A DNA stretch of 64,000 bases from Clostridia bacterium. GTDB lineage: Bacteria; Bacillota; Clostridia; Lachnospirales; Lachnospiraceae. This document shows, piece by piece, positions 6,236-64,000 of the stretch. Under the pieces are notes generated by a model, which saw nothing but the letters and a program-made list of their open reading frames with translations, made no database searches and had not been told where the DNA came from. Made by a program: the position numbers and the translations under genes. The stretch is taken from assembly GCA_910574835.1 (NCBI GenBank), contig CAJTDE010000006.1, positions 124,001 through 188,000 on the forward strand. The letters run 5' to 3'. Each line of letters opens with the position of its first letter. Position 1 is the first letter of the stretch.

Positions 6236-7016
6236 ATTAGTTGCAAGCGATATTGACGGGACGCTTCTTCCGGAGGGAACGGATCAGCTCAATCCGGAGC
6301 TGCTTGAGGTGATACGGGAACTGAAAAAGAAGGATATTTTATTTGCGGCAGCCAGCGGACGGCATTATTCCGGTATGGTAAGGCTTTTTGAGCCAATAAA
6401 AAACGATATCATTTTTATCACGGAAAATGGAGCCTATGTAACCTGCCGGGGGTATACCATGTTGGATCAGACCCTGGACTGGGAGGATGTGAAGGACTGG
6501 GTAAAGGAGGTGCGCAGGATTCAGGGCGCCAGCTTTACGATGGATACCAAAGAGGGATTTTATTCGGAAAGCCGCGACCCGGAATTTTTGGATCTGGTAT
6601 TGAAGGGCTATAAGAGTGTGATGAATATTGAGGAGGATGTGCTGGCGACAGAGCGTTCGGTAAATAAGGTAGCCCTTTACCATAAGACGGATATTGCCCG
6701 TCTTGCTAAGGAGATGATTCCCAGATGGAGCGAACGTCTTCACTGTGCGATATCCGGCGAGATTTGGGTAGACTTTCTGAACAAGGAATCCAACAAGGGA
6801 AATGCAATCCGGAGTATTCAGAAGATCTTGGGAATACTTCCGGAGGAGACGATGGTGTTCGGGGATAACTTCAACGATATCGAGATGCTTCAAAGCGCAG
6901 GAGAAAGCTACGCGGTGGGCAATGCGGCGGAGGCTGTGAAGCGGGAAGCGAAGTATGTGGCAGATACGAACGTAAACGACGGAGTGCTTAAGGTTTTGCG
7001 GACTTTAATAAATTAG
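6228..7016 (+). CDS. Cof-type HAD-IIB phosphatase
   Basis: The 262-residue protein starts with VASDIDGTLLP, the HAD nucleophile motif. It continues with the Cof-family AASGRH segment and ends with NKGNAIRSIQ and VFGDNFNDIEML, the Lys and acidic metal motifs of Cof/YbiV-type sugar-phosphate or nucleotide phosphatases. The substrate cannot be read from the sequence. The start lies within the end of the Maf-HAD fusion in another frame, so two HAD phosphatases of different subfamilies are translated back to back. A small uncharacterised gene follows after 16 bases with an AGGAGG site. Confidence 0.85.
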   Translation: MIKLVASDIDGTLLPEGTDQLNPELLEVIRELKKKDILFAAASGRHYSGMVRLFEPIKNDIIFITENGAYVTCRGYTMLDQTLDWEDVKDWVKEVRRIQGASFTMDTKEGFYSESRDPEFLDLVLKGYKSVMNIEEDVLATERSVNKVALYHKTDIARLAKEMIPRWSERLHCAISGEIWVDFLNKESNKGNAIRSIQKILGILPEETMVFGDNFNDIEMLQSAGESYAVGNAAEAVKREAKYVADTNVNDGVLKVLRTLIN

Positions 7017-7032
7017 GAGGCGGATTATAATT

Positions 7033-7296
7033 ATGAACGAATATTCAGAAGAATGTCTTGAGATTTTTTTGAGGAAGCAGGGACAGCTTTTTGACGAGCC
7101 GGTGGCTGAGACACTTGAGGAAGCGGAGGAATTTCTGGATGACTGTATGGCTGTGGTAGTTAATTCCCTGCGGGAAGTTCAGGAGTATTTTGAAGAGAGC
7201 GGCATGGATGTATCCGGTTTGTCTTACGAGGAACTGGAGGAGATGGCAGAAGTTTTTTCCATTGGCGATGGAACTTATCTGATTGTAGAGGCATAG
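7033..7296 (+). CDS. Small acidic protein of unknown function
   Basis: The 87-residue protein is rich in Glu and Asp (for example ETLEEAEEFLDDC and YEELEEMAEVF) and appears all-helical apart from a short C-terminal strand-like DGTYLIVEA. AGGAGG sits upstream. It is separated by one base from the following foldase lipoprotein gene and follows the Cof phosphatase closely, so it belongs to the same operon. No membrane segment or known motif is visible, and I do not recognise a function. Confidence 0.65.
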   Translation: MNEYSEECLEIFLRKQGQLFDEPVAETLEEAEEFLDDCMAVVVNSLREVQEYFEESGMDVSGLSYEELEEMAEVFSIGDGTYLIVEA

Positions 7297-7297
7297 T

Positions 7298-8296
7298 ATG
7301 AAATTTATCGGAAAAAGAATATTGATCTTGTGTTTGGCGGTCGGCTTATTATCAGGCGGCCTTGTCGGGTGCGGTCATTTTGAAAATGCGGAATTTGTAT
7401 TTACTTCAGGACTTACGGAAAAGGAGCTTTTTAAAGTAGGCAGCAATGTATGTACTCTGCCGGAGGCTATGATTTACGTGGTAGATTACCAGACACAATA
7501 TGAAAGCGTCTACGGAGTCCGGATGTGGGAGCACGATTTCGGCGGCATTACGCTGGAGGAGTATGTGAAGAATATCATTGTGTCGCAGCTGGCTTCCATG
7601 AAGGCAGTGACGCTTTTGGCGAAGGATTATGAGGTGGAGCTGACAGAGGCCGAGAAGGATAAGGTGAAAAAGGCGGCAAGCGAGTACTATAAGAGCTTAA
7701 GCGAGGAAGCTGTGAAGTATATGGGGCTTGAGCAGGAGGATGCGGAGAAGCTCTATTACGATCATGTGCTGTCCGGAAAGGTGTACCGGGAGATTACGAG
7801 AGACGTCAATACCGAGGTCAGTGATGACGAGGCGCGTATTATTACGGTGCAGCAGATTAAAGTGGATTCCCAGGAGAGCGGGGAAGCGATTTTAGAGCAG
7901 CTTAATGAGGAAAAGGAATTTTTGACTTTGGCTTCTGTTTACAGTGAGGACAGCCAGCTTAGCTATACGTTCGGACGCGGGGAGAAGGAGGCGCTCTATG
8001 AGGAGGCGGCTTTTTCCCTGGAGAAGGATGAGGTCAGCGGCGTGATCGCGGCGGAGGATGGATTTTATATCCTGAAATGTGTGGACAATTTTGACCGTGA
8101 GGCCACGGAGGCGAATAAGGTTACTATGGTGGAGAGGCGCAGGGACGAGATTTTCAGCGGGGTTTATGAGGAATTGATTGCGAATACGCCTTCGGAGTTT
8201 AATAACCGGGTTTGGGAGCAGGTGCATTTTGAGGATTTGGGGGAGGAGCTGCCGGGGAGTTTTTTGGAGGTTTATGGGAGGTATTTTGAGGAGTAG
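7298..8296 (+). CDS. PrsA-like peptidyl-prolyl isomerase lipoprotein
   Basis: The 332-residue protein has a lipoprotein signal peptide with a lipobox ending LVGC near residue 25, so it should be anchored on the outer face of the membrane. A SurA/PrsA-like helical part (~residues 50-180) precedes a parvulin (PpiC-type) domain at ~185-270. That domain includes TVQQIKVDSQESGEAIL, ASVYSEDSQLSYTFGRGE and GVIAAEDGFYILKCVD. Such proteins assist folding of exported proteins. The last ~250 bases are markedly G+T-rich, leading into the foldback element that begins five bases after the stop. The gene family is secure; clients are unknown. Confidence 0.82.
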   Translation: MKFIGKRILILCLAVGLLSGGLVGCGHFENAEFVFTSGLTEKELFKVGSNVCTLPEAMIYVVDYQTQYESVYGVRMWEHDFGGITLEEYVKNIIVSQLASMKAVTLLAKDYEVELTEAEKDKVKKAASEYYKSLSEEAVKYMGLEQEDAEKLYYDHVLSGKVYREITRDVNTEVSDDEARIITVQQIKVDSQESGEAILEQLNEEKEFLTLASVYSEDSQLSYTFGRGEKEALYEEAAFSLEKDEVSGVIAAEDGFYILKCVDNFDREATEANKVTMVERRRDEIFSGVYEELIANTPSEFNNRVWEQVHFEDLGEELPGSFLEVYGRYFEE

Positions 8297-8300
8297 AGGG

Positions 8301-8531
8301 GGACGGGAGTTTCGAAAAACAGGCCGTCAGGTTTTTCCATATCTGTGTTCGGACGGTTCGCGCACACTATGTCTGCTCTTGGCGGACGAACGTTTTTAGG
8401 GGATGACAGGCTTCGCCTGCTTTGACTCTTTGTACGTTCGTTCGCCAAGAGCAGACATAGTGTGCGCGAACAGCCGGACACCTGATATCGGAAAAACCTG
8501 ACGGCCTGTTTTTCGAAACTCCCTGTCTTTG
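8301..8531 (+). repeat. Large foldback (long inverted repeat) element, copy 1, forward orientation
   Basis: A ~228-bp sequence that folds on itself almost completely. The left end begins GGACGGG and the right end finishes CCCTGTCTTTGGG. Outer arms at 8307-8338 and 8491-8521 are perfectly complementary. A conserved imperfect core follows (CCATATCTGTGTTCGGACGG on the left, CAGCCGGACACCTGATATCG on the right). Inner arms are 8363-8393 and 8434-8464, and the loop contains a small CAGGC/GCCTG hairpin. It lies between the convergent foldase and aminotransferase genes. Copies occur at 30344 and, inverted, at 51488. It could be a mobile foldback, a structured RNA or a DNA hairpin; no transposase is nearby. 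Confidence 0.85.
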
Positions 8532-8561
8532 GGGGTGTATGTTTGGAGGTGGATATTTTGG

Positions 8562-9656
8562 TTATAGTAGTTCTTTTAGGCAGGTTAGGAGGGCGGTGTT
8601 TTGGGCGGGGTGCATGAAGCAGAAGCGGATGTAGCGGTTGTCCAGGAAGGGGAAGGTGCAGCAGTTGCGGATCATCATTTTTCTTCGGATGGCGTGTTCG
8701 AAGAGATCTTCGGCTGTGACGCCTTCTTTTTCTATGCGGATTAGGACAAAATTGGCCTGGGGGTTGTAGACTTTTACGGTTTTCCAGGTGTTGAGTTCTT
8801 GGCAGATTCGGGTGCGTTCTTTGGCTGTCAGGGCTTTTGTTTGGGCGATGTAGTCTTTGTCGGAGAACATAAGCTCTCCGGCTATGGCAGCCAGGCTGTT
8901 GATGGTCCAGGGGTTTTTGACGGTGTTTATGCGTTTGATTAGATCGTCGTGGCCGGTTATGGCATAGCCTAGGCGCAGGCCGGGGGAGGCGAAAAATTTG
9001 GATACGCCTCTGAGGATTACAAGGTTGTTGTAGTAACGGGTGAGGGGGACGCAGGTGACGGCTTCGCAGTCGGGGGCAAATTCCACATAGGTTTCGTCTA
9101 CCAGGACGCAGATGTCATAGCGTTTGCAGTCGTCGAGTATTTTCCGCATGGTCTGCTGGGGGATGGCGGAAGAGGTGGGGTTGTTGGGGTTGCAGATGAC
9201 CAGAAGATCCAGGCTTTCGCTCAGGTGCTTTTGGAAATCTGTCAGATCCAAAATAAATCCGTTTTCCTCTTTCAGCGGGTAATAGAGAGAGGTTCCGCCG
9301 CCTAAGGAGATCTCCCGTTCGTATTCTGAGTAGGTGGGTCCCAGGATCAGGGCTTTTTTGGGATGCTCAAGCTGAATAAAAAGGGAGATTAGCTCGGTGG
9401 AGCCGTTGCCCACTACGATGTGCTCCAGGGGGGCGCCGGTATAGGCGCTGATCTGCTGCCGCAGGGAGGTATACTCCCGATCCGGGTAGGATGTGATGCA
9501 GTCGATTTGCTCGATGAGGGCGGAGCGCATCATGGGTGAAATTCCGAGGGGATTGACGTTGGCGCTGAAGCTTACGATCTCCTCTTTTTTGATGCCGTAT
9601 ACCTGCTCTATTTTTTCTAAGTCACTGCCGTGAAAATGATCTACATGTTTTAACAT
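8562..9656 (-). CDS. PLP-dependent aminotransferase/decarboxylase, CobD/HisC-like
   Basis: This is a fold-type I PLP enzyme of 364 residues. It begins MLKHVDHFHGSDLEKIEQVYG and continues FSANVNPLG, a pattern typical of threonine-phosphate decarboxylase (CobD) and related histidinol-phosphate aminotransferases. CNPNNPTS and the Schiff-base lysine segment GVSKFFASPGLRLGY are present, as is a conserved C-terminal Arg region. I chose the start at 9656 because AGAGGA lies five bases upstream; a longer frame adds 17 unsupported residues. No other cobalamin or histidine genes lie nearby, so CobD and HisC cannot be separated here. The coding strand is unusually A+C-rich at its 3' end, next to the foldback element. 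Confidence 0.7.
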   Translation of the reverse strand: MLKHVDHFHGSDLEKIEQVYGIKKEEIVSFSANVNPLGISPMMRSALIEQIDCITSYPDREYTSLRQQISAYTGAPLEHIVVGNGSTELISLFIQLEHPKKALILGPTYSEYEREISLGGGTSLYYPLKEENGFILDLTDFQKHLSESLDLLVICNPNNPTSSAIPQQTMRKILDDCKRYDICVLVDETYVEFAPDCEAVTCVPLTRYYNNLVILRGVSKFFASPGLRLGYAITGHDDLIKRINTVKNPWTINSLAAIAGELMFSDKDYIAQTKALTAKERTRICQELNTWKTVKVYNPQANFVLIRIEKEGVTAEDLFEHAIRRKMMIRNCCTFPFLDNRYIRFCFMHPAQNTALLTCLKELL

Positions 9657-28824: not shown

Positions 28825-29544
28825 ATGAATGAAGCAATCAGACAGATTAAAAAATTGGGGACAGAGGAAAGGGCTTATCTGGAAACGTATTTTGCAGATG
28901 CGCCCTTCTGGCTTATGGATGCATTCCAGGTGGTGTGGATGCCGAAAAACAGGACCTTTATCACAGAGGGTGAGGCGGCGGAGGATATTTATATTCTTCT
29001 TAAGGGTGATGTGGTAGCCGAAGAGCACCGGGTAAAGGATATGACCTATGGCTTTATTCGATTTCATCCCATTGAGGTATTCGGCGTAATGGAGCTTATG
29101 CTTGAGAAGGACGAGTATCAGACGACGCTGGTGACCACGGCGGAGAGTGTTTTTCTAAAGACGGCCCGCAAGACGTTTCAGAGATGGTTTGAACATGATT
29201 TTCAGGCATACCGGATGGAGTGCAAGAAGGTGGGAAGGTATCTTTTGAAGCAGGCCAGAAAGGATCGGCTGTATGTGCTGCTTCAGGGAGTGGAGCGGAT
29301 TTATCTGGTGCTTTATAAAATGTACCAGGCTTATGCCGTCAACGGAACATGCAGTCTCTATATCAGCCGGAAGGATTTTACGGAGACGGCCGGGGTGTCG
29401 GAGCGGACGGTGACCCGAACCTTAAAGGCTTTGGAGGAGAAGGGGTGCATTACCAGAGACGGATGGCGGATTTTGCTCACCGGGGAGCAGTATGAGATGA
29501 TTCGCGGACTGCTGGAAGATAAGATGTATGAATTTGAAGAATAG
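28825..29544 (+). CDS. Crp/Fnr-family transcriptional regulator
   Basis: The 239-residue protein has a cyclic-nucleotide-binding-like beta domain (~residues 25-125, including FITEGEAAEDIYILLKGDV) followed by a winged helix near 165-235 (ISRKDFTETAGVSERTVTRT). No cysteine cluster typical of Fnr is visible in the N-terminus, so an iron-sulfur sensor is unlikely. It lies inside the nucleoside operon between deoB and deoD and may regulate it; the effector is unknown. Confidence 0.82.
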   Translation: MNEAIRQIKKLGTEERAYLETYFADAPFWLMDAFQVVWMPKNRTFITEGEAAEDIYILLKGDVVAEEHRVKDMTYGFIRFHPIEVFGVMELMLEKDEYQTTLVTTAESVFLKTARKTFQRWFEHDFQAYRMECKKVGRYLLKQARKDRLYVLLQGVERIYLVLYKMYQAYAVNGTCSLYISRKDFTETAGVSERTVTRTLKALEEKGCITRDGWRILLTGEQYEMIRGLLEDKMYEFEE

Positions 29545-29624
29545 ATTTTCAGTTTTGGTATAGGAAGCAGGGAGAGCTATTTGGACTGCGGCGTGAGAAT
29601 GAAAAAACGAAAGGAGTGACATGT

Positions 29625-30335
29625 ATGTCTCAGACACCAACACCTCATAATGGAGGGAAAAAGGGCGATTTTGCCAAAACAGTTTTGATGCCGGGGGACC
29701 CCCTTCGGGCGAAGTATATTGCGGAGACGTATCTTGAGGATTACCGGCAGGTGACGGCTGTGCGGAATATGTTTGGCTACACGGGGACTTATCATGGGAA
29801 GGAAATCTCGGTGATGGGGGCCGGTATGGGGATGCCTTCGATGGGGATTTATTCTTATGAGTTGTTTCATTTTTATGATGTGGATAATATTATTCGTATT
29901 GGGTCGGCGGGAGCGCTGCAGGATCATGTGAAGGTGATGGATGTGGTTGTCGGTATGGGGGCTTGTACGGATTCGAATTATGCTTATCAGTACGGACTTC
30001 CGGGGACTTTTGCGCCTACTGCGGATTATGGGCTTATGAGCCAGGCGATTGCTGTGGCGGAAAAGCAGGGGACGCATGTGGTTGTGGGAAATGTGCTGTC
30101 TTCGGATGTGTTTTATAATGCGAAGGGTGATGTGAATGATCTGTGGAGGAGTATGGGAGTGCTGGCTGTGGAGATGGAGGCGGCGGCTCTTTATATGAAT
30201 GCGGCGAAGGCCGGGAAGAAGGCGCTTTGTCTTTTGACGATTTCGGATCACCTTTATACGGGGGAGGCTTTGAGTGCTGAGGAACGGCAGGTCGGCTTTG
30301 GGAAGATGATGGAGATTGCGTTGGAACTTGGGTGA
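29625..30335 (+). CDS. deoD: Purine-nucleoside phosphorylase, DeoD type
   Basis: The enzyme cleaves purine nucleosides with phosphate. The 236-residue protein is of the hexameric bacterial type, with VLMPGDPLRAKYIAE, GMGMPSMGIYSYEL, IRIGSAGALQ and VEMEAAALY, and the catalytic Asp region TISDHLYTGE. The ATG at 29625 has AAGGAGTG upstream; a GTG at 29616 overlaps that site. It closes the nucleoside operon. Codons become strongly G- and T-ending toward the 3' end, next to the second foldback element nine bases after the stop. Confidence 0.93.
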   Translation: MSQTPTPHNGGKKGDFAKTVLMPGDPLRAKYIAETYLEDYRQVTAVRNMFGYTGTYHGKEISVMGAGMGMPSMGIYSYELFHFYDVDNIIRIGSAGALQDHVKVMDVVVGMGACTDSNYAYQYGLPGTFAPTADYGLMSQAIAVAEKQGTHVVVGNVLSSDVFYNAKGDVNDLWRSMGVLAVEMEAAALYMNAAKAGKKALCLLTISDHLYTGEALSAEERQVGFGKMMEIALELG

Positions 30336-30343
30336 TTGGGGGC

Positions 30344-30565
30344 GGACGGGTCAGCCGCAATAGAAGGCCTCAGGCTTTTCCATATCTGTGTTCGGACGGT
30401 TCGCGTACACGCTGTCTGCTCTGTACGTACATTACCTTGTTGTTGTGTTTATGACGTTTGGTTTTTTGGTAATGTACGTCCATATCAGACAGTGTGTTCG
30501 CGAACAGCCGGACACCTGATATCGGAAAAGCCTGAGGCCTTCTATTGCGGCTGACCCTGACTTTG
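30344..30565 (+). repeat. Large foldback element, copy 2, forward orientation
   Basis: Left end GGACGGG and right end CCCTGACTTTGGG match copy 1. The outer arms at 30350-30379 and 30524-30555 are perfectly complementary to each other, but their sequence differs from that of copy 1. The imperfect core is the same (CCATATCTGTGTTCGGACGG and CAGCCGGACACCTGATATCG). Apical arms carry ACATTACC/GGTAATGT around a ~30-base T-rich loop. It lies between the convergent deoD and YCII genes. Confidence 0.85.
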
Positions 30566-30609
30566 GGTGTGGAATAGTCCACGTGCTTCTTGGGGGAGCT
30601 TTGTATGGT

Positions 30610-30909
30610 TTACAGTAGGTAGTTATTGGTTTTGTCCGCTACTTGCAGGGAGGCTAATTGATAGGTGGCGAAGCCTTCGGCTACGAGGGGTTCTTGTTTA
30701 CATAGTTCTTCGGCTTCTTCGTAGGTTGCGGTTTTGAAGATGACCATGCCGGCGACTCCGGGGTAGCCCTTGAAAGGGCCGCAAAGCTCTAGTTTTCCTT
30801 CGGCGTCTAGTTTGCGTAGGTTTTCGACGTGTCTTGTGATTACGGCTTTTGTAACTTTGTTAAAGGTTTTTCCTTTTTTGATTGTCATGACGTATAGCCA
30901 TTTTTCCAT
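30610..30909 (-). CDS. YCII-family small protein
   Basis: The 99-residue protein fits the YCII ferredoxin-like fold, with RHVENLRKLDAEGKLELCGP and the terminal LVAEGFATYQLASL region. Members may be small hydrolase- or dehydrogenase-like enzymes but few have known functions. The start at 30909 is supported by GGAGG; a longer frame is not. Its 3' end is next to the second foldback element and shows the same strand skew, here A+C-rich on the coding strand. Confidence 0.7.
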   Translation of the reverse strand: MEKWLYVMTIKKGKTFNKVTKAVITRHVENLRKLDAEGKLELCGPFKGYPGVAGMVIFKTATYEEAEELCKQEPLVAEGFATYQLASLQVADKTNNYLL

Positions 30910-31047
30910 GTTGTTTCCTCCGATTTTGATTTTTTGTGTTGAATTTGATTTGAGTGGCTCCGGTGCTTGGTTAAGCGGCAAATAGTAGATGTGGTTATTG
31001 GTTTGCCGGCAGATTTGGGTGTTTTTTGATTTTTGGATGAGTGTGCA

Positions 31048-31956
31048 TTAGGTGTAGAGATTCATAATCTCGGCTGCGTGTTCTTTCAGTGTGGTACGGG
31101 CTGCTTCGGGTTCGAGGATTTCTACGTATTTGCCAAAGGATAGCAGATAGTGAATGGTCCAGTGATTCAGCTCAAAAGGTACGGCGGCATAATAATTTCC
31201 GTCTTGGCCCAATGAGAGTTGTTCTTCTTGAAATTCGTCGTAGAGGCGGTGGGCGATTTTGGGTGAAAATTTTAGCTTTAACAGGGGGAGCGGGGGTTCT
31301 TCTTTGCACTCTGGTGTAAGGGAGTAGTTTGGGGGCAGTTCCCGATCAAATTGCTCCGGCATGACCTGGAGGCGCCTGATTCTGGACAGGCGGAAGATTC
31401 TGATTTCCTGCTTGTACCGGCAGTGGCCTGCAATATACCAGGCGTGTGATTTGAACATCAGCCGCAGGGGTTCGATGGCTCGTTCCGATTGCTTTAGCTC
31501 TGTGTTGCGGTATAGGAAAGTGATGACGTGTTTATTCAGGATGGCGTATTGCAGATCGGAGAGTTTTATTTTTTCCTTTTCAGTGCTTCCCCAATGGGTA
31601 AAGTCAATATCGAGCCAGTTGGATTTTAGTGCATTTTGGAAAATGGCGCTGATTTTGCTTAGGGCCATTTCTGCGCTTGGGTATTTGGCGGCCTGCAGTA
31701 TTTGCAGTCCCTGGTAAATGCTTTGCTGTTCCTCCTTGGATAAAATGGATTTGTCGATGGTGTATCCGTCTATGAGGGAGATGCCTCCGCCGGTTCCTTT
31801 TGTGGATGTGACTGGGATTCCGGCAATGCTTAAGGTGTTGATGTCCCGGTAGATTGTTCTTGCGGATACTTGAAAGTGATTGGACAATTCCTTTGCTGTT
31901 ACTTGTTTGTGGCTGGCGATGTAAAATACCATTTGTACCAGACGGTCTATCTGCAT
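31048..31956 (-). CDS. WYL-domain transcriptional regulator (YafY-like)
   Basis: The 302-residue protein has an N-terminal HTH (~residues 5-60, with VTAKELSNHFQVSARTIYRD) and a WYL domain from ~140 (AWYIAGHCRYKQEIRIFRLS), followed by a C-terminal extension. WYL domains bind small ligands or nucleic acid and control expression. A perfect inverted repeat lies 38 bases upstream of the start and probably forms its own operator. AAGGAG precedes the ATG. Targets may include the genes at 32122-33444, by position only. Confidence 0.83.
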   Translation of the reverse strand: MQIDRLVQMVFYIASHKQVTAKELSNHFQVSARTIYRDINTLSIAGIPVTSTKGTGGGISLIDGYTIDKSILSKEEQQSIYQGLQILQAAKYPSAEMALSKISAIFQNALKSNWLDIDFTHWGSTEKEKIKLSDLQYAILNKHVITFLYRNTELKQSERAIEPLRLMFKSHAWYIAGHCRYKQEIRIFRLSRIRRLQVMPEQFDRELPPNYSLTPECKEEPPLPLLKLKFSPKIAHRLYDEFQEEQLSLGQDGNYYAAVPFELNHWTIHYLLSFGKYVEILEPEAARTTLKEHAAEIMNLYT

Positions 31957-36965: not shown

Positions 36966-37625
36966 ATGAGTTATCAGATTGCCATTGACGGTCCGGCTGG
37001 GGCCGGGAAGAGTACGATTGCCAAGGAGCTTGCCAAGCGGCTTGGATTTATTTATGTGGATACGGGGGCGATGTATCGGGCTATGGCTTTGTATTTGCTG
37101 CGGGAGGGGGTTCCGATGGACGATTCCGGAAAAATCAGCGCGGCAAGCCAGAGGGCGGATATTACAATTGCTTATAAGGACGGGCTTCAGCAGGTGCTGC
37201 TTGACGGGGAGAATGTGACGACTTTTCTGCGGACGGAGGAAGTGGGAAATATGGCTTCTGTTTCTTCTGCTAATCCGGATGTGAGGAAAAAGCTGGTGGA
37301 ATTGCAGCAAAATTTGGCAAACAGGGAAAATGTGGTGATGGATGGCCGGGATATTGGAACCTGTGTGCTTCCGAATGCGGATGTGAAGGTTTATTTGACG
37401 GCTTCCGCGTCTTGCCGGGCGAAACGGCGGTATGAGGAATTGACGGCTAAGGGGGAAACGTGTGATCTTGGTGTGATTGAGGCGGATATTGAGAAGCGGG
37501 ATCATCAGGATATGACGCGGGAACATTCGCCGCTTAGACAGGCGGAGGATGCGGTGTTTTTGGATTCTTCAAAGATGACGATTCGGGAGGTTGTGGAGAG
37601 GATTCTTGTGCTTGTTGAAAGGTAA
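36966..37625 (+). CDS. cmk: Cytidylate kinase
   Basis: This enzyme phosphorylates CMP and dCMP with ATP. The 219-residue protein has the P-loop IDGPAGAGKST, the nucleotide-monophosphate segment YVDTGAMYRAMA, and RDIGTCVLPNADVKVYLTAS. Its length is normal for the family. I prefer the ATG at 36966, giving MSYQIAIDGP, over a GTG at 36957. It is the first of the cmk / ispH / rpsA group common in Firmicutes, with one extra gene inserted after it. Confidence 0.94.
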   Translation: MSYQIAIDGPAGAGKSTIAKELAKRLGFIYVDTGAMYRAMALYLLREGVPMDDSGKISAASQRADITIAYKDGLQQVLLDGENVTTFLRTEEVGNMASVSSANPDVRKKLVELQQNLANRENVVMDGRDIGTCVLPNADVKVYLTASASCRAKRRYEELTAKGETCDLGVIEADIEKRDHQDMTREHSPLRQAEDAVFLDSSKMTIREVVERILVLVER

Positions 37626-37659
37626 GTGTTTTTGGCATTTGTGGAGGAGAAAAGATTTT

Positions 37660-38976
37660 ATGGGGATTCGGTATGATCTGAGTGTTTCGGAATTGATGGA
37701 TTTCTTTTGTGTGGGGGAGCATTGTGGGTTTTCTGAGAGAGAGATTGAGGCGGCGGAGAAGAGGGTGGGAGTTTCTTTTCCTGATTGTTATCGTAGGTTT
37801 CTTTTGGAGTATGGGAAGGATAATGTGAATACGAGGTATAATCAGATGAATACGCCGGAGGAGATTTTTACTTCTTATGAGGCGATTCGTGAGACTTTGG
37901 AGGAGTGGGAAGAGGAGTTTGAGGATGCGAAAAGGAATGGGGGGCAGGCGGATTATGCGGATAATGAGTATTTTACTCTGTGGCAGCTTTCGGAAGAGGA
38001 GTGGGGAAGTGTTACGGAGAATTATTTGCTGATCTGGGCGGAAAATCAAGGGGTTTGGAATGCGGGATATTTGGTTAAGGACTTGCAGGATGGGGTGGCG
38101 GACCCTCCGGTTTATATGAGTACGGAGGATGATTTTGTTACTTTTAAGAGGTGTGCGGACAGTACGGATGTGTTTTTGAAAGGGATGCTTGGGGAGGCGG
38201 CTTATGGGTATCATAGCAAGGAGCGGTATACGAAGCTTCCGGAGATTGAGATGGAGCTTGCGAAGAGGGGGATTGATACGGGGCGCCTTGAGAAGGCCGG
38301 GAACTGCCTGGATACTGAGATGGAACGGCTGTATTTTTATGCGGTCAATGGTGATTATCGTGATTTGATTATTGCTAATCGAAGAGAGCCGGACAAGGAA
38401 GAGCTGATGCGGCAGGTGTTTCAGGCCGTGCAGGCGATTCCGAAGCCAAGGTATCATCCGTATCATTTGCGGCTTACGGATAATCAGGAAAAGGATTTGG
38501 GAATGAAGCGTCCGCGTAAGCCCGGGGGAATTGCGGTTCATCCTATTGTGGCTTTTGCAATGAAGGAGTATTTTAACCGACTTCCACTGACTGCTTATGA
38601 CTGGGGGAAGGATTTGGGACGGATGAAGACTTTGAAGCTGGAACCGAGTGGCAGAACGGAGGGGACGGATGTTGTTTATATTTATCCGCCTTCAGAGTAT
38701 TTTCCGCCGGAGCCTTATTATTATGATCTTCATGACTGGTCTATAATTGGGAAGATGGCTGGATTGCGGACGCTTGCTATAGAGAATATTTTTGTGGATG
38801 ATTTTAGCTTTTTAAGATATTGTAAAAATGTACGCAGGCTGTCTTTATATGGTACGAATTTTTCTGATTGCAGACTTTTGCTGGAAATGCCGAATCTGAA
38901 GGAAGCGGATCTTCATCTGTGTCCCTTGGAGCATGAAGAAATTTTGGATGCCCTGCCTGTCAGCTGCCGCAGATAA
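37660..38976 (+). CDS. SUKH (SMI1/KNR4-like) protein with leucine-rich tail
   Basis: The 438-residue protein has a SUKH-like N-terminal domain (~residues 15-165: FSEREIEAAEKRVGVSFPDC, then YRRFLLEYG and WQLSEEEWG). A ~150-residue middle region is not recognised. A short leucine-rich-type stretch lies near the C-terminus (LRTLAIENIFVDDFSFLRY, VRRLSLYGTNFSDCRLLLE). SUKH domains are common in immunity proteins against contact-dependent toxins and in regulatory proteins. No toxin is adjacent; it lies between cmk and ispH. Its coding sequence is notably G+T-rich at the start. The function is unknown. Confidence 0.65.
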   Translation: MGIRYDLSVSELMDFFCVGEHCGFSEREIEAAEKRVGVSFPDCYRRFLLEYGKDNVNTRYNQMNTPEEIFTSYEAIRETLEEWEEEFEDAKRNGGQADYADNEYFTLWQLSEEEWGSVTENYLLIWAENQGVWNAGYLVKDLQDGVADPPVYMSTEDDFVTFKRCADSTDVFLKGMLGEAAYGYHSKERYTKLPEIEMELAKRGIDTGRLEKAGNCLDTEMERLYFYAVNGDYRDLIIANRREPDKEELMRQVFQAVQAIPKPRYHPYHLRLTDNQEKDLGMKRPRKPGGIAVHPIVAFAMKEYFNRLPLTAYDWGKDLGRMKTLKLEPSGRTEGTDVVYIYPPSEYFPPEPYYYDLHDWSIIGKMAGLRTLAIENIFVDDFSFLRYCKNVRRLSLYGTNFSDCRLLLEMPNLKEADLHLCPLEHEEILDALPVSCRR

Positions 38977-41038: not shown

Positions 41039-41120
41039 AACTAAAAATTTAAAAATGATATAAGCAGACGGGAGGACAGGCACTGGCGTGCGTGTCCTCG
41101 TGCCTTGTAGAGAGATATTG

Positions 41121-41268
41121 CGGCTAGGGTGTACTGCGAAGGATATTGCGGAACTGGAATCAGCAATATCCTTTGCAGTACACAAATCGATTTGCAGACA
41201 CATGTGTTTGTGGCTGGAAATTGATTTAGGCTAGGGTGTACTGCGAAGGATATTGCGAAACTGGAATC
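41121..41268 (+). repeat. Arm/anti-arm/arm structured repeat, copy 1
   Basis: GTGTACTGCGAAGGATATTG (41129-41148, then C) is followed by the loop GGAACTGGAATCA, its reverse complement (41163-41183), a central hairpin (41184-41227), and a second identical copy of the first arm (41236-41256) ending in the box that abuts the ribosome site of the next gene. The anti-arm can pair with either flanking copy. A second element with different arm sequence but the same design lies at 62915. Confidence 0.8.
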
Positions 41269-50290: not shown

Positions 50291-51340
50291 ATGGAAAAGA
50301 AAAAATACGTAGCCTATGTAGGAACCTACACCCACGGCAGCAGCGAGGGAATCCATCTGTTCGATCTGGATGTAGAGGAAGGAACCATGATCGAGCGAAA
50401 GGTCATCCCCATCAACAACCCATCCTACATCAAGCTGTCCCACAACGGCAAGCACCTGTATTCCATATCCGACGAAGGCGTGCGCTCCTTTATCATACAA
50501 CCGGACGGCGATCTGGAGCCGTTAAACTGCGCCAGCGTAGACGGCATGCGGGGCTGCTATCTTTCCACCGATCAGGAAGACAAATACCTATTCGTAGGCG
50601 GCTGGCACGACGGAAAAGTCACCGTACTGCGCCTGAATGAAGACGGAAGCGTAGGCGAAATCACCGACGGCATTTTCCACAAAGGCTTAGGCAGCGTAGC
50701 CGAACGGAACTTCCGCCCCCACGTAAACTGTGTCAATCTAACCCCGGACGGCAAATACCTCTGCGCCGTAGACCTGGGAACCGACCAGATTAAAATCTAC
50801 AAATTCGACTACCGAACCGGAAAAATCACCCTGGTAGATCTCCTGATGTGCGAGCTAAACTCCGCCCCCCGAATCATCAAATTCAGCCGCGACGGAAAGT
50901 TCGCCTACGCAATCAGCGAGCTGAAAAACTACATCACCGTATACAAATATGACGGAAGCGGAAAAAATCCCTCCTTCGAGCTGATTCAAACCGTTTCCAC
51001 CTTAAACGACTACCATTCCGCCACCAGCGCCGCAAGCGCTCTGCGCTTCTCCAAAGACGGAACCAAAGTACTATGCACCAACGCCGGCGACAACACCGCC
51101 GGAATCTTCCACGTAGACAAAGAAACCGGCCTATTAGAGAAGATCTGCATCCTCCCCATCAGCGGCGACTACCCCAAAGCCGGCGACTTCTTCCCCGACA
51201 ACCGCCGCATCATATCCTTAAACCACGAAAGCAACAGCATCACCATATTCGACATCAACTACGAAAAAAAATACTTCACCATGAAAGGCAAACCCATCCC
51301 CATCGAGACCCCCAACTGCATCCTAGTATCCGAAATCTAA
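50291..51340 (+). CDS. Beta-propeller lactonase-family protein
   Basis: The 349-residue protein has the seven-bladed propeller repeats of the 6-phosphogluconolactonase (Pgl) family: YVGTYTHGSSEGI at the start, RPHVNCVNLTPDGKYLCAVD, FSRDGKFAYAISEL, and NHESNSITIFDI. Whether it is a genuine lactonase cannot be told. GGAGGAG lies upstream of 50291. The last ~300 bases are extremely A+C-rich on the + strand, leading to the third foldback. Confidence 0.75.
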   Translation: MEKKKYVAYVGTYTHGSSEGIHLFDLDVEEGTMIERKVIPINNPSYIKLSHNGKHLYSISDEGVRSFIIQPDGDLEPLNCASVDGMRGCYLSTDQEDKYLFVGGWHDGKVTVLRLNEDGSVGEITDGIFHKGLGSVAERNFRPHVNCVNLTPDGKYLCAVDLGTDQIKIYKFDYRTGKITLVDLLMCELNSAPRIIKFSRDGKFAYAISELKNYITVYKYDGSGKNPSFELIQTVSTLNDYHSATSAASALRFSKDGTKVLCTNAGDNTAGIFHVDKETGLLEKICILPISGDYPKAGDFFPDNRRIISLNHESNSITIFDINYEKKYFTMKGKPIPIETPNCILVSEI

Positions 51341-51384
51341 TTCTGAAAGGGACAGCCGAAAATACCGGCTGTCCCTTTCAGAAT
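51340..51384. terminator. Perfect 19-bp hairpin terminator after the lactonase gene
   Basis: ATTCTGAAAGGGACAGCCG pairs with its exact reverse complement ending at 51384 with a ~7-base loop. No T-run follows on the + strand, so it may act as a stabiliser or terminate poorly. Confidence 0.7.
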
Positions 51385-51487
51385 TATCCCCCCCCGACCT
51401 ACACCAATATCCCCTAACCTACACATTAATTTCCTAAACAAACCAACCATATTTTTGCCCCCAAAATTCCCCCAAACAACCGCCTTC

Positions 51488-51710
51488 AAAGTCAGGTGAT
51501 GCGGAAAAAGGGGGCGGCAGGCTTTTCCGATATCAAGTGTCCGGCTGTTCGCGTACACGGCGTCTGATCCGGACGAACATTACCAAGAAATCTAAATCCC
51601 ACAAACAACCTTTCAAGGTAATGTACGTCCGGAGCAGACGCCGTGTACGAGAACCGTCCGAACACAGATATGGAAAAGTCTGCCGCCCCCTTTTTCCGCA
51701 TCACCGTCCC
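51488..51710 (-). repeat. Large foldback element, copy 3, inverted orientation
   Basis: On the minus strand this has the same ends (GGACGG and CCTGACTTTG) and core as copies 1 and 2. The outer arms (51496-51529 and 51674-51705) are complementary to each other and different from those of the other copies. Inner arms at 51553-51584 and 51616-51647 pair with only two mismatches around a ~31-base A-rich loop. It lies in the 535-base gap 51341-51875, which also holds the hairpin terminator and the pduL promoter. Confidence 0.85.
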
Positions 51711-51758
51711 CCCACCCACTTTGTACCACGAAAAATACAAATATTTCCCCAACACCAC

Positions 51759-51787
51759 TTGAAAAATACCCACAAAACGCATAAAAT
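51759..51787 (+). promoter_or_regulatory. Sigma-A promoter of pduL-ackA
   Basis: TTGAAA at 51759 and TAAAAT at 51782 are separated by 17 bases. The leader has a hairpin pairing GATGAAAC (51819-51826) with GTTTCATC (51832-51839). Confidence 0.55.
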
Positions 51788-51875
51788 AGACATTAGAATC
51801 GCGCACTGCGATATGGGCGATGAAACTCTATGTTTCATCCCTGCGACATCCCACAATAGAAAAGGAGAATGGATT

Positions 51876-52442
51876 ATGAATTTCGTAGTTGAAACATCCG
51901 CACGCCACGTGCACGTAACACAGGAGGATCTGGAAACCTTATTCGGCAAAGGCTATGAGCTGACCAAGAAAAAAGATCTCTCCCAGCCGGGCCAGTTCGC
52001 CTGCAACGAAAAAGTAACCATCGTAGGACCCAAAAAAGAAATGTCAGCCTCCATCTTAGGACCCGTAAGACCCGAGACCCAGATCGAGCTGTCCCTCACA
52101 GACGCCCGTTCCATCGGTGTAACGGCCCCTGTCCGTGAGTCCGGCGACATAGCAGGAAGCGGCGCCTGCAAGCTGGTAGGACCTGCAGGAGAAGTAGAGC
52201 TTAAGGAAGGCGTAATTGCAGCAAAGCGTCACATCCATGCAACTCCCGAGGATGCCGAGAAGCTTGGCGTAAAAGACAAAGACGTAGTATCCGTAAAAGT
52301 AGACACCTACGGCAGAAGCCTGGTATTCGGTGACGTAATTGTCCGCGTAAGTCCCAAATACGCACTGGCCATGCACATTGACACCGACGAGTCCAACGCG
52401 GCAGGCTGCGCAGGAACCGTATACGGTGAGATTGTAAAATAA
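51876..52442 (+). CDS. pduL: Phosphate acetyl/propanoyltransferase, PduL type
   Basis: PduL is an alternative, zinc-dependent phosphotransacylase unrelated to Pta. The 188-residue protein has two His-rich metal segments (SARHVHVTQED and AAKRHIHATPEDA) and the two pseudo-symmetric beta-barrel halves of the family. No encapsulation peptide is visible at the N-terminus, so it is cytoplasmic and not targeted to a microcompartment. It is followed after 84 bases by acetate kinase, so the pair makes acetate and ATP from acetyl-CoA. AAAGGAG supports the start; the long upstream frame through the foldback is rejected. Confidence 0.9.
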   Translation: MNFVVETSARHVHVTQEDLETLFGKGYELTKKKDLSQPGQFACNEKVTIVGPKKEMSASILGPVRPETQIELSLTDARSIGVTAPVRESGDIAGSGACKLVGPAGEVELKEGVIAAKRHIHATPEDAEKLGVKDKDVVSVKVDTYGRSLVFGDVIVRVSPKYALAMHIDTDESNAAGCAGTVYGEIVK

Positions 52443-56921: not shown

Positions 56922-57043
56922 CTGGTAAAGTCGCAAAGGCGCACAAGAGGAACTTTTATGAGTGCCCTTTCGAATAAAAGTTTCTCTCATTACAGGTGTG
57001 TCGAAGCGGCTTTACCCTTTAGTGCCGTCGCGCAGCGACTTTA
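56922..57043 (+). repeat. Structured leader repeat B, copy 1 (before plsX)
   Basis: GGTAAAGTCGC (56924-56934) pairs with GCGGCTTTACC (57006-57016). A hairpin between pairs GGAACTTTTAT with ATAAAAGTTTC, and GTCGC-GCA-GCGAC (57027-57039) forms a terminal hairpin. A second copy lies at 59180. It sits three bases before the AGGAGG of plsX. Confidence 0.75.
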
Positions 57044-57060
57044 AACAGGAGGAAATTTAT

Positions 57061-58310: not shown

Positions 58311-58361
58311 TACATCATTATATTAATTTTTGAAGTAAATACTAGGTTTATAGAAGGATGG

Positions 58362-58412
58362 GCTGCCACAAGGAATGGACTGATGATCGGTGGGTTACTT
58401 GTGGTAGCTTAT
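58362..58412 (+). terminator. Possible terminator hairpin after acpP
   Basis: GCTGCCACAAG pairs with CTTGTGGTAGC around a ~25-base loop, followed by TTATTTC. The surrounding sequence up to the rnc start is strongly G+T-rich. Confidence 0.4.
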
Positions 58413-59179: not shown

Positions 59180-59300
59180 GGTTAAAGTCGCAAAGGCGCA
59201 CGAGAGGAACTTTTATGAGTGCCTTTCCGAATAAAAGTTTCTCTCATTACAGGTGTGTCAAAGCGACTTTACCCTTTAGTGCTGTCGCACAGCGACTATA
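59180..59300 (+). repeat. Structured leader repeat B, copy 2 (before smc)
   Basis: The same layout as at 56922: GTTAAAGTCGC (59181-59191) against GCGACTTTACC (59263-59273), a central hairpin with the same AACTTTTAT/ATAAAAGTT stem, and GTCGC-ACA-GCGAC (59284-59296). It occupies most of the rnc-smc gap. Confidence 0.75.
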
Positions 59301-59322
59301 AATAGAACGAACGGAGCGATGT

Positions 59323-62880: not shown

Positions 62881-62914
62881 AATGACAAAACTGCATTCCT
62901 CAAATATTGTAAAA

Positions 62915-63050
62915 GTGTACGGGAAGGGGATTGCGGTACTGGAATCAGCAATACCCTTCCTGTACACAGAACAGTTTACAGACGGATGGACCTGCGGCTG
63001 GAAACTGTTCTTAGTACAGGTGTACGGGAAGGGGATTGCGGTACTGGAAT
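62915..63050 (+). repeat. Arm/anti-arm/arm structured repeat, copy 2
   Basis: GTGTACGGGAAGGGGATTGC (62915-62934), loop GGTACTGGAATCA, anti-arm 62948-62967, central hairpin 62968-63011 (AGAACAGTTT with AAACTGTTCT) and a second copy of the arm 63020-63039 ending in the box before the ftsY ribosome site. The arm sequence differs from that at 41121 but is repeated the same way. Confidence 0.8.
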
Positions 63051-63068
63051 AGAATAGGGGGTATCGAA

Positions 63069-63998
63069 GTGTCAGAGGAGAAAAAGGGATTTTTTGGAAG
63101 ACTGGTGTCGGGACTGGCGAAGACGCGGGCGAATATTGTGGCAGGGATGGACAATATTTTCAGCGGATTTTCGGCTATTGATGATGAATTTTATGAGGAG
63201 ATTGAAGAAACTCTGATTTTGGGGGATATTGGGATCAATGCCACCAATGCGATTATTCAGGATCTGAAGGCGAAGGTGAAGGAGCAGAGACTTAAGGAGC
63301 CGTCTCAGTGTAAGGATCTTTTGATTGCAAGTATCCGGGCGCAGATGGAGGTGGGCGAGGTGGCCTACCGGTTTGAGGAGGAGAAGTCTGTGGTTCTGGT
63401 GATCGGGGTCAATGGGGTTGGTAAGACGACTTCGGTTGGGAAGCTGGCAGGGAAGCTTAAGGATCAGGGGAAGAAGGTGATTCTGGCAGCGGCGGATACG
63501 TTTCGGGCGGCGGCAGGTGAGCAGCTTACAGAGTGGGCGTCAAGGGCCGGGGTGGATATTATCAGCGGATGTGAGGGGGCTGATCCGGCTTCTGTGGTTT
63601 ATGACGCGGTTTGCGCGGCGAAGGCCAGGAATGCGGATGTGCTGCTTTGTGATACGGCAGGGAGGCTTCATAATAAGAAGAATCTGATGGAGGAATTGCG
63701 TAAGATTAACCGCATTATAGACAGGGAGTATCCGGATGCTTATCGGGAGACGCTTGTGGTGCTTGACGGGACTACGGGGCAGAATGCGCTGGAGCAGGCG
63801 AGGCAGTTTAAGAGTGTGGCGGATGTTACGGGGATTATTTTGACGAAGCTGGATGGGACGGCTAAAGGGGGAATTGCGGTGGCTATTCAGTCGGAGATGG
63901 GGATTCCGGTGAAGTATGTGGGAGTTGGGGAGAGTATTGATGATTTGCAGAAGTTTAAGGCGGATGAGTTTGTGAATGCGTTGTTTCATCAAGGGTAG
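63069..63998 (+). CDS. ftsY: Signal recognition particle receptor FtsY
   Basis: This GTPase receptor of the SRP directs nascent membrane proteins to the translocon. The 309-residue protein lacks the long acidic A-domain and has the N domain followed by the G domain: GVNGVGKTTSVGKLAG, ADTFRAAAGEQL, DTAGRLHNK and TKLDGTAKGG. I use the GTG at 63069 with AGGGGG upstream; the frame from the TTG in the repeat is rejected. The 3' end is G+T-rich toward the window edge. Confidence 0.94.
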   Translation: MSEEKKGFFGRLVSGLAKTRANIVAGMDNIFSGFSAIDDEFYEEIEETLILGDIGINATNAIIQDLKAKVKEQRLKEPSQCKDLLIASIRAQMEVGEVAYRFEEEKSVVLVIGVNGVGKTTSVGKLAGKLKDQGKKVILAAADTFRAAAGEQLTEWASRAGVDIISGCEGADPASVVYDAVCAAKARNADVLLCDTAGRLHNKKNLMEELRKINRIIDREYPDAYRETLVVLDGTTGQNALEQARQFKSVADVTGIILTKLDGTAKGGIAVAIQSEMGIPVKYVGVGESIDDLQKFKADEFVNALFHQG

Positions 63999-64000
63999 GT

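Follow-up and report, generated by a model that had tools for sequence, protein, structure and literature searches.

Three large foldbacks lie in the 64,000-nt stretch of Clostridia DNA analysed here (the window), and they raise the question of what kind of element changes the sequence of its outer arms from copy to copy yet keeps those arms complementary within each copy. A preliminary description had located all three, and their positions are confirmed in the sequence: copy 1 (8301..8531, + strand) starts 5 nt past the stop codon of a gene at 7298-8296 with a PPIC-type rotamase domain, copy 2 (30344..30565, + strand) starts 9 nt past the stop codon of a phosphorylase-superfamily gene (29616-30335), and copy 3 (51488..51710, − strand) is inverted. 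A fourth copy, found by profile search at C6:188001-188242, starts at about the first base past the window end (position ~64001). Throughout, G000 denotes the window's own genome (5.01 Mb), the other G-numbers the genomes compared with it, and L-numbers individual loci.

The element is about 220 nt long with about 80 pairs. Its 5′ part consists of a foot, GGACGG(ACGG), an outer arm (most often 29 nt), TTTTCCATATC-GTGTTCGGACGGTTC, an inner stem and a G/T-rich loop; after the loop come the inner stem again, GAACAGCCGGACAC-GATATCGGAAAA, the second outer arm, and a 3′ foot, CCTGG-TTTGG, past which both the window copies and the flank profile have a TG-CTTTGGGGG-like sequence. In copy 1 the outer 5′ arm (8305..8338, +), which varies between copies and runs into a conserved TTTTTCC, is 100% complementary to its inverted-repeat partner, the outer 3′ arm (8490..8523, +), and the imperfect core (8333..8495, +) has conserved bulges and an apical loop. 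Within a 10-nt window at the feet of 122 copies, GACG is present in 85/122, TGG in 80/122 and both in 62/122, with 1 and 27 in control windows placed farther out.

The count of three copies holds for the window, but the family is far larger. A 61-nt query identified at least 40 places in G000 (40 scored of 72 candidates), a profile search of 1.18 Mb of that genome returned 22 full copies (bits > 85) and 3 fragments, and 131 distinct copies were collected over six genomes, 122 of them with arms of at least 20 nt (20-54 nt) and the collection having cores of 113-163 nt, mostly 150-157 nt. In the search of related genomes that had been proposed, the 61-nt query matched 11 of 61 genomes (its own and 60 relatives), all from one genus, with G000, G002, G005, G007, G012 and G013 being rich in matches; among the genomes searched, the foldback family is confined to one genus of Clostridia, probably one of the Lachnospiraceae of the mouse gut. 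A pattern scan of named genomes gave at least 90 stretches, and among the matches listed all are in five assemblies: B90_2, C56_79_FC_BP and A46_38.BP.DSS ('Clostridia bacterium'), 'Bacterium 1XD21-13', and 'Lachnoclostridium sp. S30_Bin3'. Window copy 2 had zero matches in phages and plasmids, and one core pattern had zero in viral contigs.

At the locus of gene P0007, different species have copies in opposite orientation and three genomes (G013, G006 and G004) have none, and these opposite orientations and empty sites show that the element has moved. Flanks of filled and empty sites, inspected by eye for a target-site duplication, have diverged too strongly for one to be read. A gene inserted within a copy was sought in loci L001-L161, and none was present among 12 unpaired core matches, which are half-copies, internal deletions, contig or locus ends, one near-complete copy and one reversed match. 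Two diverged relatives of the element with short matched arms (L054 in G015 and L062 in G011) occupy one orthologous locus in other species of the genus, and perhaps represent an older form.

The core and the arms behave differently. Folded as single-stranded DNA, copy 1 has a free energy of -109.4 kcal/mol compared to a shuffle mean of -32.6 (sd 3.5, n=200; z -22), and folded as RNA it has a z of -23. Mismatched core positions had been described as common to the copies, and across 18 aligned copies from G000 the unpaired and wobble positions are indeed largely the same, with many core pairs and unpaired positions invariant. A T.G pair at columns 53/176 is present in 18/18 copies, with the wobble on the top strand only, and when this invariant pair is left out the inner stem has 19 top-strand G.U cells and 6 A.C (counted from the pair table). 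The core looks, from its alignment, to be kept by selection and the arms to be free, and the constancy of bulges and wobbles across the 18 copies agrees with the earlier suggestion that the core is conserved as if recognised. An Rfam search of the window yielded 0 matches at the gathering score.

The arms of the three window copies are complementary at 100%, 100% and 97% over 34 nt. Between copies the arms are not wholly unrelated, as had been claimed: among 22 G000 copies with 28-30-nt arms, the 5′ and 3′ arms match at 22.7/23 positions within a copy and 11.8/23 between copies, which is above the chance quarter and shows that they diverged from a common arm. The proposed search for covariation gave a strong signal, in that 46 of 81 pairs changed on both sides across 18 copies, and the covariation score was 0.386 compared to 0.111 for shuffled alignments (0/500 as high) and 0.062-0.071 for slid ones.

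Orthologous copies provide a more direct view of arm evolution. Grouping by flanks gave 36 groups (one group of 9 being partly chained via shared downstream sequence) and 54 pairs whose arms reach 20 nt and differ in length by no more than 3 nt, of which 4 were dropped with more than half of the arm changed. In the 33 pairs other than G000-G007 – which are not independent within a group, and include a within-genome pair from the chained group, L019-L022, with 5 changes – changes on both arms that preserve pairing account for 181 of 806 positions, changes on one arm for 23, and a change on both that breaks it for 1. The 17 G000-G007 pairs (452 positions) have 9 changes on both arms, 7 of them from a single locus, 6 on one arm and 0 unpaired. 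Window copy 3 and its G012 orthologue have flanks that are 91-95% identical, yet 7/24 arm positions are changed on both sides. In some orthologues arm length has also changed on both sides, with arms of 44 and 45 nt at L151/L080, 54 and 34 nt at L142/L115, and 29 and 32 nt at window copy 2/L134. Simple copying of one sequence is inadequate to account for arms that change and stay complementary, as had been argued.

The same changes bear on whether pairing is selected in RNA or arises at the DNA level. With each change taken a single time per group, position and type, transversions make up 84 of 128 paired arm changes. Past the first four positions, where 3273 pairs were inspected over all copies, the mismatches (one count per group) are 26 A.C, 16 G.T and 12 other; G.T is not commoner than A.C (16 vs 26; p 0.16), and accounts for 23 of 3761 arm pairs. 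In an RNA evolving by compensatory changes, transitions and G.U intermediates should be favoured; transversions pass through no wobble intermediate. Because two-thirds of the changes are transversions and some lengths change on both arms, DNA-level arm-to-arm copying is favoured over RNA selection, and the arm pattern favours repeated copying of one arm into the other, from which such an outcome would be expected. Internally deleted copies at L203 and L122 still have matched arms, which suggests that slippage of a DNA hairpin may have produced them, and L205 has a GGACGG foot and a perfect 22-bp palindrome with the core missing. The preliminary description left the choice between selection for pairing and homogenisation open; the second, acting on DNA, is the better supported here and RNA selection the less so, and its interpretation overall is supported in part.

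A further property, absent from that description, is a strand asymmetry of the flanking DNA: the orientation of the element predicts which strand of the genes within about 1 kb is rich in G and T. To our knowledge, no known repeat has been reported to do so. The top strand of the flanks has a composition of G 0.31-0.34, C 0.11, T 0.32-0.36 and A 0.22-0.23. Over 124 copies, mean oriented GC skew starts at 0.50 on one side and 0.49 on the other within 100 nt of the element, where 122-123 copies contribute, and falls to 0.11-0.14 at 2 kb, where 58-67 do. At four-fold sites, top-strand G+T in same-strand genes is 0.88 at 0-100 nt and declines to 0.52 at 3-4 kb, and in opposite-strand genes it declines from 0.69-0.72 (first 300 nt) to 0.54, in a profile that includes orthologous, non-independent copies. 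The trend is present on both sides of the element, with two lower nearest bins, 0.57 for opposite-strand genes on the 5′ side (69 sites) and 0.65 for same-strand genes on the 3′ side (77 sites).

All 22 full copies in the 1.18 Mb of G000 have positive oriented skew (minimum 0.17). The oriented residual over a 30-kb background has a mean of 0.256 and a minimum of 0.073 (null sd 0.105; p 4.5e-14), with 16/22 residuals above the 95th percentile of the null and 7/22 above the 99th; the five copies that face their local background have residuals of 0.28-0.62 (5/5), and 20 other inverted repeats have no residual skew as a group (0.075 against 0.079). Of the window copies, 1 and 2 stand in positive skew and the inverted copy 3 stands in negative skew. 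In 600-nt windows GC skew is 0.28-0.39 in the G-rich flanks of copy 1 (6900..9100) and 0.20-0.43 in those of copy 2 (29100..31500), and the C/A-rich (+ strand) flanks of copy 3 (50700..51900) have skews of -0.14 to -0.37 despite + strand neighbours, P0001 and P0006. The rise at the right end of the window (62900..64000; 0.30-0.47) is matched by the fourth copy just beyond. Flanks of half-copies are mixed, with GC skew of 0.33, 0.36 and 0.47 in three of five and -0.01 and 0.14 in the other two.

Orthologous genes with and without a neighbouring copy were compared by their keto (G+T) content at third positions in the last half of the gene at five loci in the genus, which are not a random sample, three being those of the window copies and two being picked because their copies face the contig background. 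P0007 has a keto content of 0.86 (G000) and 0.82 (G007) where the element is in + orientation, 0.16 (G002) and 0.32 (G012) where it is in − orientation, 0.54 (G013), 0.48 (G006) and 0.51 (G004) where it is absent, and 0.54 in G005, which has half a copy. P0001, next to copy 3, has values of 0.12, 0.10, 0.20 and 0.22 in four carriers, 0.55 in the copy-less G006, whose protein is 95% identical, 0.31 in G005, which has no copy now, and 0.40-0.63 in nine others. At P0008 the carriers have 0.18, 0.17 and 0.28, and the copy-less G006 and G004 have 0.61. Two loci have the right sign and a weaker effect: P0003 has 0.70-0.92 with a copy at 2-882 nt and 0.64 in the copy-less G013 (six of eight loci, with a contig-end fragment from G006 and the second of two G012 matches set aside), including 0.71 in G005 with an adjacent copy, 0.70 in G002 (copy 882 nt off) and 0.73 in G012 (733 nt off), and P0002 has 0.74-0.78 with copies or derivatives compared to 0.52-0.68 without. 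Since P0007 is near neutral without a copy and its sign follows orientation, with P0001 and P0008 in agreement, these comparisons speak for the element being the cause of the skew rather than a skewed target having been chosen.

A second family of hairpins, family B, is represented by five hairpins in G005, G012 and G013 (L309, L310, L311, L241 and L168), and has a GGACG foot, variable complementary arms and a different short core, TCCCTGCTCCGC...CTAACACGC. One more was seen by eye in G000 at C7:54810, among the 20 'other' repeats, with a residual of 0.19. At P0008, family B has the same skew sign as the main element, the keto content being 0.36 in G005, 0.35 in G012 and 0.36 in G013; these intermediate values were considered as a leftover of lost copies, a reading set aside because a family-B hairpin is present in each. 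At P0001 in G013 a family-B hairpin is present and keto content is 0.49.

Not all strong skew has an element at its centre. Of 35 places with an absolute GC skew of at least 0.38, 14 are within 1.2 kb of a copy and 21 are farther away. Twenty of the latter were examined, leaving out C6:21600, which is 1.6 kb from a copy; they contain one weak inverted repeat in all and no 16-mer common to three or more, and 18/20, distributed on contigs C1, C2, C5, C6 and C7, share the sign of the contig mean skew. Elements were therefore rejected as the source of all skew peaks, as 20 strong ones have neither an element nor a strong hairpin. The window's strongest GC skew (0.59) is at 37500-38300, at the start of P0004, a SUKH-domain gene matched in only 3/16 genus genomes, with no copy or hairpin; three loci checked for the 37.9-kb peak (L240-L242) contain no copy. 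A peak at 58.5 kb, at the rnc locus, has no copy in the loci of any of 16 genomes. Just upstream of rnc a degraded arm-like hairpin, GGCTGCCACAAG / CTTGTGGTAGCT, can be seen by eye at 58361-58411, and is perhaps a relic of a lost copy; the profile search has no match there. Two other repeats were observed in the window: a dispersed 129-nt repeat, 91% identical between 56926-57054 and 59183-59311 and also matched in loci of relatives (e.g. L134, L075, L124, L070 and L152), and short repeat pairs 105-107 nt apart with inverted parts at 41117-41268 and 62909-63050, the first of which has a GGATATTGCGGAACTGGAAT-like sequence and also matches L151 and L116.

Substitutions near copies were compared between G000 and G007 at four-fold sites of 33 locus pairs, with equilibrium assumed and the far bin being itself skewed. 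The C to T rate is 0.080 within 300 nt and 0.025 beyond 1.3 kb (27 and 20 differences) and the C to G rate is 0.033 and 0.001 (11 and 1 differences), and near and far rates hardly differ for A to G (0.065, 0.068) and G to A (0.013, 0.018). Total four-fold divergence does not rise near copies (0.043 vs 0.039; 0.28 vs 0.40 for distant pairs). A polarised count at seven loci has C to T at 11/411 sites near and 11/1302 far (26.8 vs 8.5 per thousand). When all sites are polarised (40 of 118 loci), C to T is not raised (0.022 near and far) and G to T is in excess near copies, with G to T at 44/2865 sites and C to A at 8/1254 within 200 nt; this all-site count is blurred by codon-position selection, and four-fold sites were used in its place. 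The spectrum resembles cytosine loss from an exposed strand, with small counts.

Our best explanation, to which we assign a probability of roughly 0.55, is a REPIN/MITE-like DNA foldback, non-autonomous, that exposes one strand, skews its neighbourhood and has its arms recopied, where the exposure, the enzyme and the function are what we infer. The top strand, which has the fixed T.G wobble, would fold as single-stranded DNA, and a strand-specific step, in which a nick or gap arises across from the hairpin and is widened both ways, would leave it single-stranded over about 1 kb. The exposed strand would then lose its cytosines (to T and to G) more rapidly than its partner, and we propose that the neighbourhood becomes G/T-rich on the top strand as a result. 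Resynthesis across the hairpin may copy one arm into the other, which we propose is how the arms stay complementary. A nick or gap opposite the hairpin is preferred because the signal is symmetric and strand-specific; with resection from a double-strand break the sign would flip from one side to the other, and a polymerase stalled at the hairpin would produce a one-sided gap. That a dispersed DNA hairpin is a strand-specific mutator, writing its orientation into synonymous sites within about 1 kb while its arms are continually recopied, we put at slightly short of even chances. Against the explanation stand the A to G rate and total divergence, neither of which is raised, the all-site count, flat for C to T and with its excess of G to T, the 20 orphan peaks, the weak effects at P0003 and P0002, the keto content of 0.49 at P0001 in G013 beside a family-B hairpin, and the mixed half-copies.

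Two alternatives involve transcription. The element could be a structured RNA (a 3′-UTR hairpin, a terminator or an RNase III substrate, RNA roles that have been suggested for REP, NEMIS or ERIC repeats), with its arms held complementary by selection for pairing and the skew a separate matter. The strong covariation (0.386 vs 0.111) and the tolerance of top-strand G.U in the inner stem fit such a role, as does placement: of 37 G000 copies, 23 have a same-strand gene next upstream and 17 have the 5′ foot at -22 to +12 nt around a same-strand stop codon (a count using uncurated ORFs and a single arm length for all copies), and several copy-less relatives carry, as judged by eye, a terminator-like hairpin at the site of copy 1. 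The role is nonetheless unlikely, for the arms have no G.U preference and 84/128 of their paired changes are transversions, none of the three window copies is followed by the T run of an intrinsic terminator, 14/37 copies have no same-strand gene next upstream, and the skew is left unexplained. Transcription could account for the skew itself if an R-loop exposed the non-template top strand, and the effect is stronger in top-strand genes (0.88) than in opposite-strand ones (~0.70). But the skew is on both sides and includes opposite-strand genes on both sides, for which one promoter or flanking gene is insufficient, and we think an R-loop origin still less likely than a structured RNA.

The other two alternatives take the skew as given or as selected. 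If G/T-rich flanks were selected, for example because they spare the hairpin's surroundings from secondary structure or suit a DNA-binding protein, the frequency of G to T relative to C to A within 200 nt (44/2865 vs 8/1254) would be accommodated, and a strand of G and T alone is incapable of Watson-Crick self-pairing; the signal, though, is still seen at four-fold sites 1-2 kb away, in unrelated genes of both strands, and selection of this kind appears improbable, a shade more so than the R-loop. Lowest of all we place preferential insertion into regions already skewed, with polarity matched. Element orientation agrees with the sign of the contig mean skew in 17/22 copies, and 21/35 of the strongest peaks are more than 1.2 kb from any copy, as insertion into skewed regions could give; yet P0007 is near neutral without a copy and differs in sign with orientation, P0001 and P0008 agree, and all five counter-oriented copies (5/5) are skewed against their background.

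NEMIS, ERIC and RUP are MITE-like bacterial repeats, intergenic foldbacks of 100-200 nt without genes, and the terminal repeats of MITEs are conserved in sequence. The element shares with the former that it is an intergenic foldback without genes; unlike in MITEs, its arms are free in sequence yet complementary, and no transposase-bearing parent was found (12 unpaired core matches, L001-L161). REPINs (or BIMEs) are pairs of REP sequences moved by RAYT transposases, described, in the part of the source available, as dispersed, extragenic and non-coding inverted doublets that can form one large hairpin in single-stranded DNA or mRNA (PMC3116915). By its folding and pair table the element is such a doublet with a large hairpin, and it departs from the REPINs described there in having about 220 nt and about 80 pairs, hypervariable arms and a flank strand asymmetry (PMC3116915). 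The GTAG tetranucleotide at the foot of REPIN/RAYT sequences is absent, the feet being GGACG and TGG. Neither of two candidate enzyme families tested tracked the carriers: the Y1 transposase family (PF01797) is in 8/16 genus genomes and absent from the copy-rich G007 (97% complete), the reverse transcriptase family (PF00078) has zero matches in the carrier G012 (92% complete), and both were rejected.

The feet resemble those of CGTC-tagged REPs, which have stems of 8-9 bp and loops of 4-5 nt and, as far as the available part of that report goes, come from five phyla, Firmicutes not among them (PMC3733652). Shared features are a CGTC-type tag and a CCA-type tail near the feet, a location downstream of genes and the lack of a dedicated transposase; the arms of 20-54 nt and core of about 150 nt differ from an 8-9 bp stem with a 4-5 nt loop (PMC3733652). 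Template switching at quasipalindromes homogenises inverted-repeat arms (PMC8604942), and compared to the yeast genes and E. coli mutational hotspots treated in the available portions of those studies (PMC8604942, PMC7202029), here a whole dispersed family would be affected over species time, with the core spared. The element works like a REPIN or MITE hairpin and has CGTC-REP-like feet, but the defining features of each fail. The literature searched, with subscription papers largely outside it, describes neither this family nor any skew that has dispersed hairpins at its centre.

Should the asymmetry prove mutational, a small repeat would set the local polarity of mutation, and codon usage and GC skew nearby would report the site and orientation of a hairpin instead of reflecting replication direction or expression alone. 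Hairpin-induced single-strandedness can be put to the test at the P0007 locus, where related species have either orientation or an empty site, and the arms would be a record of inverted-repeat homogenisation over species time.
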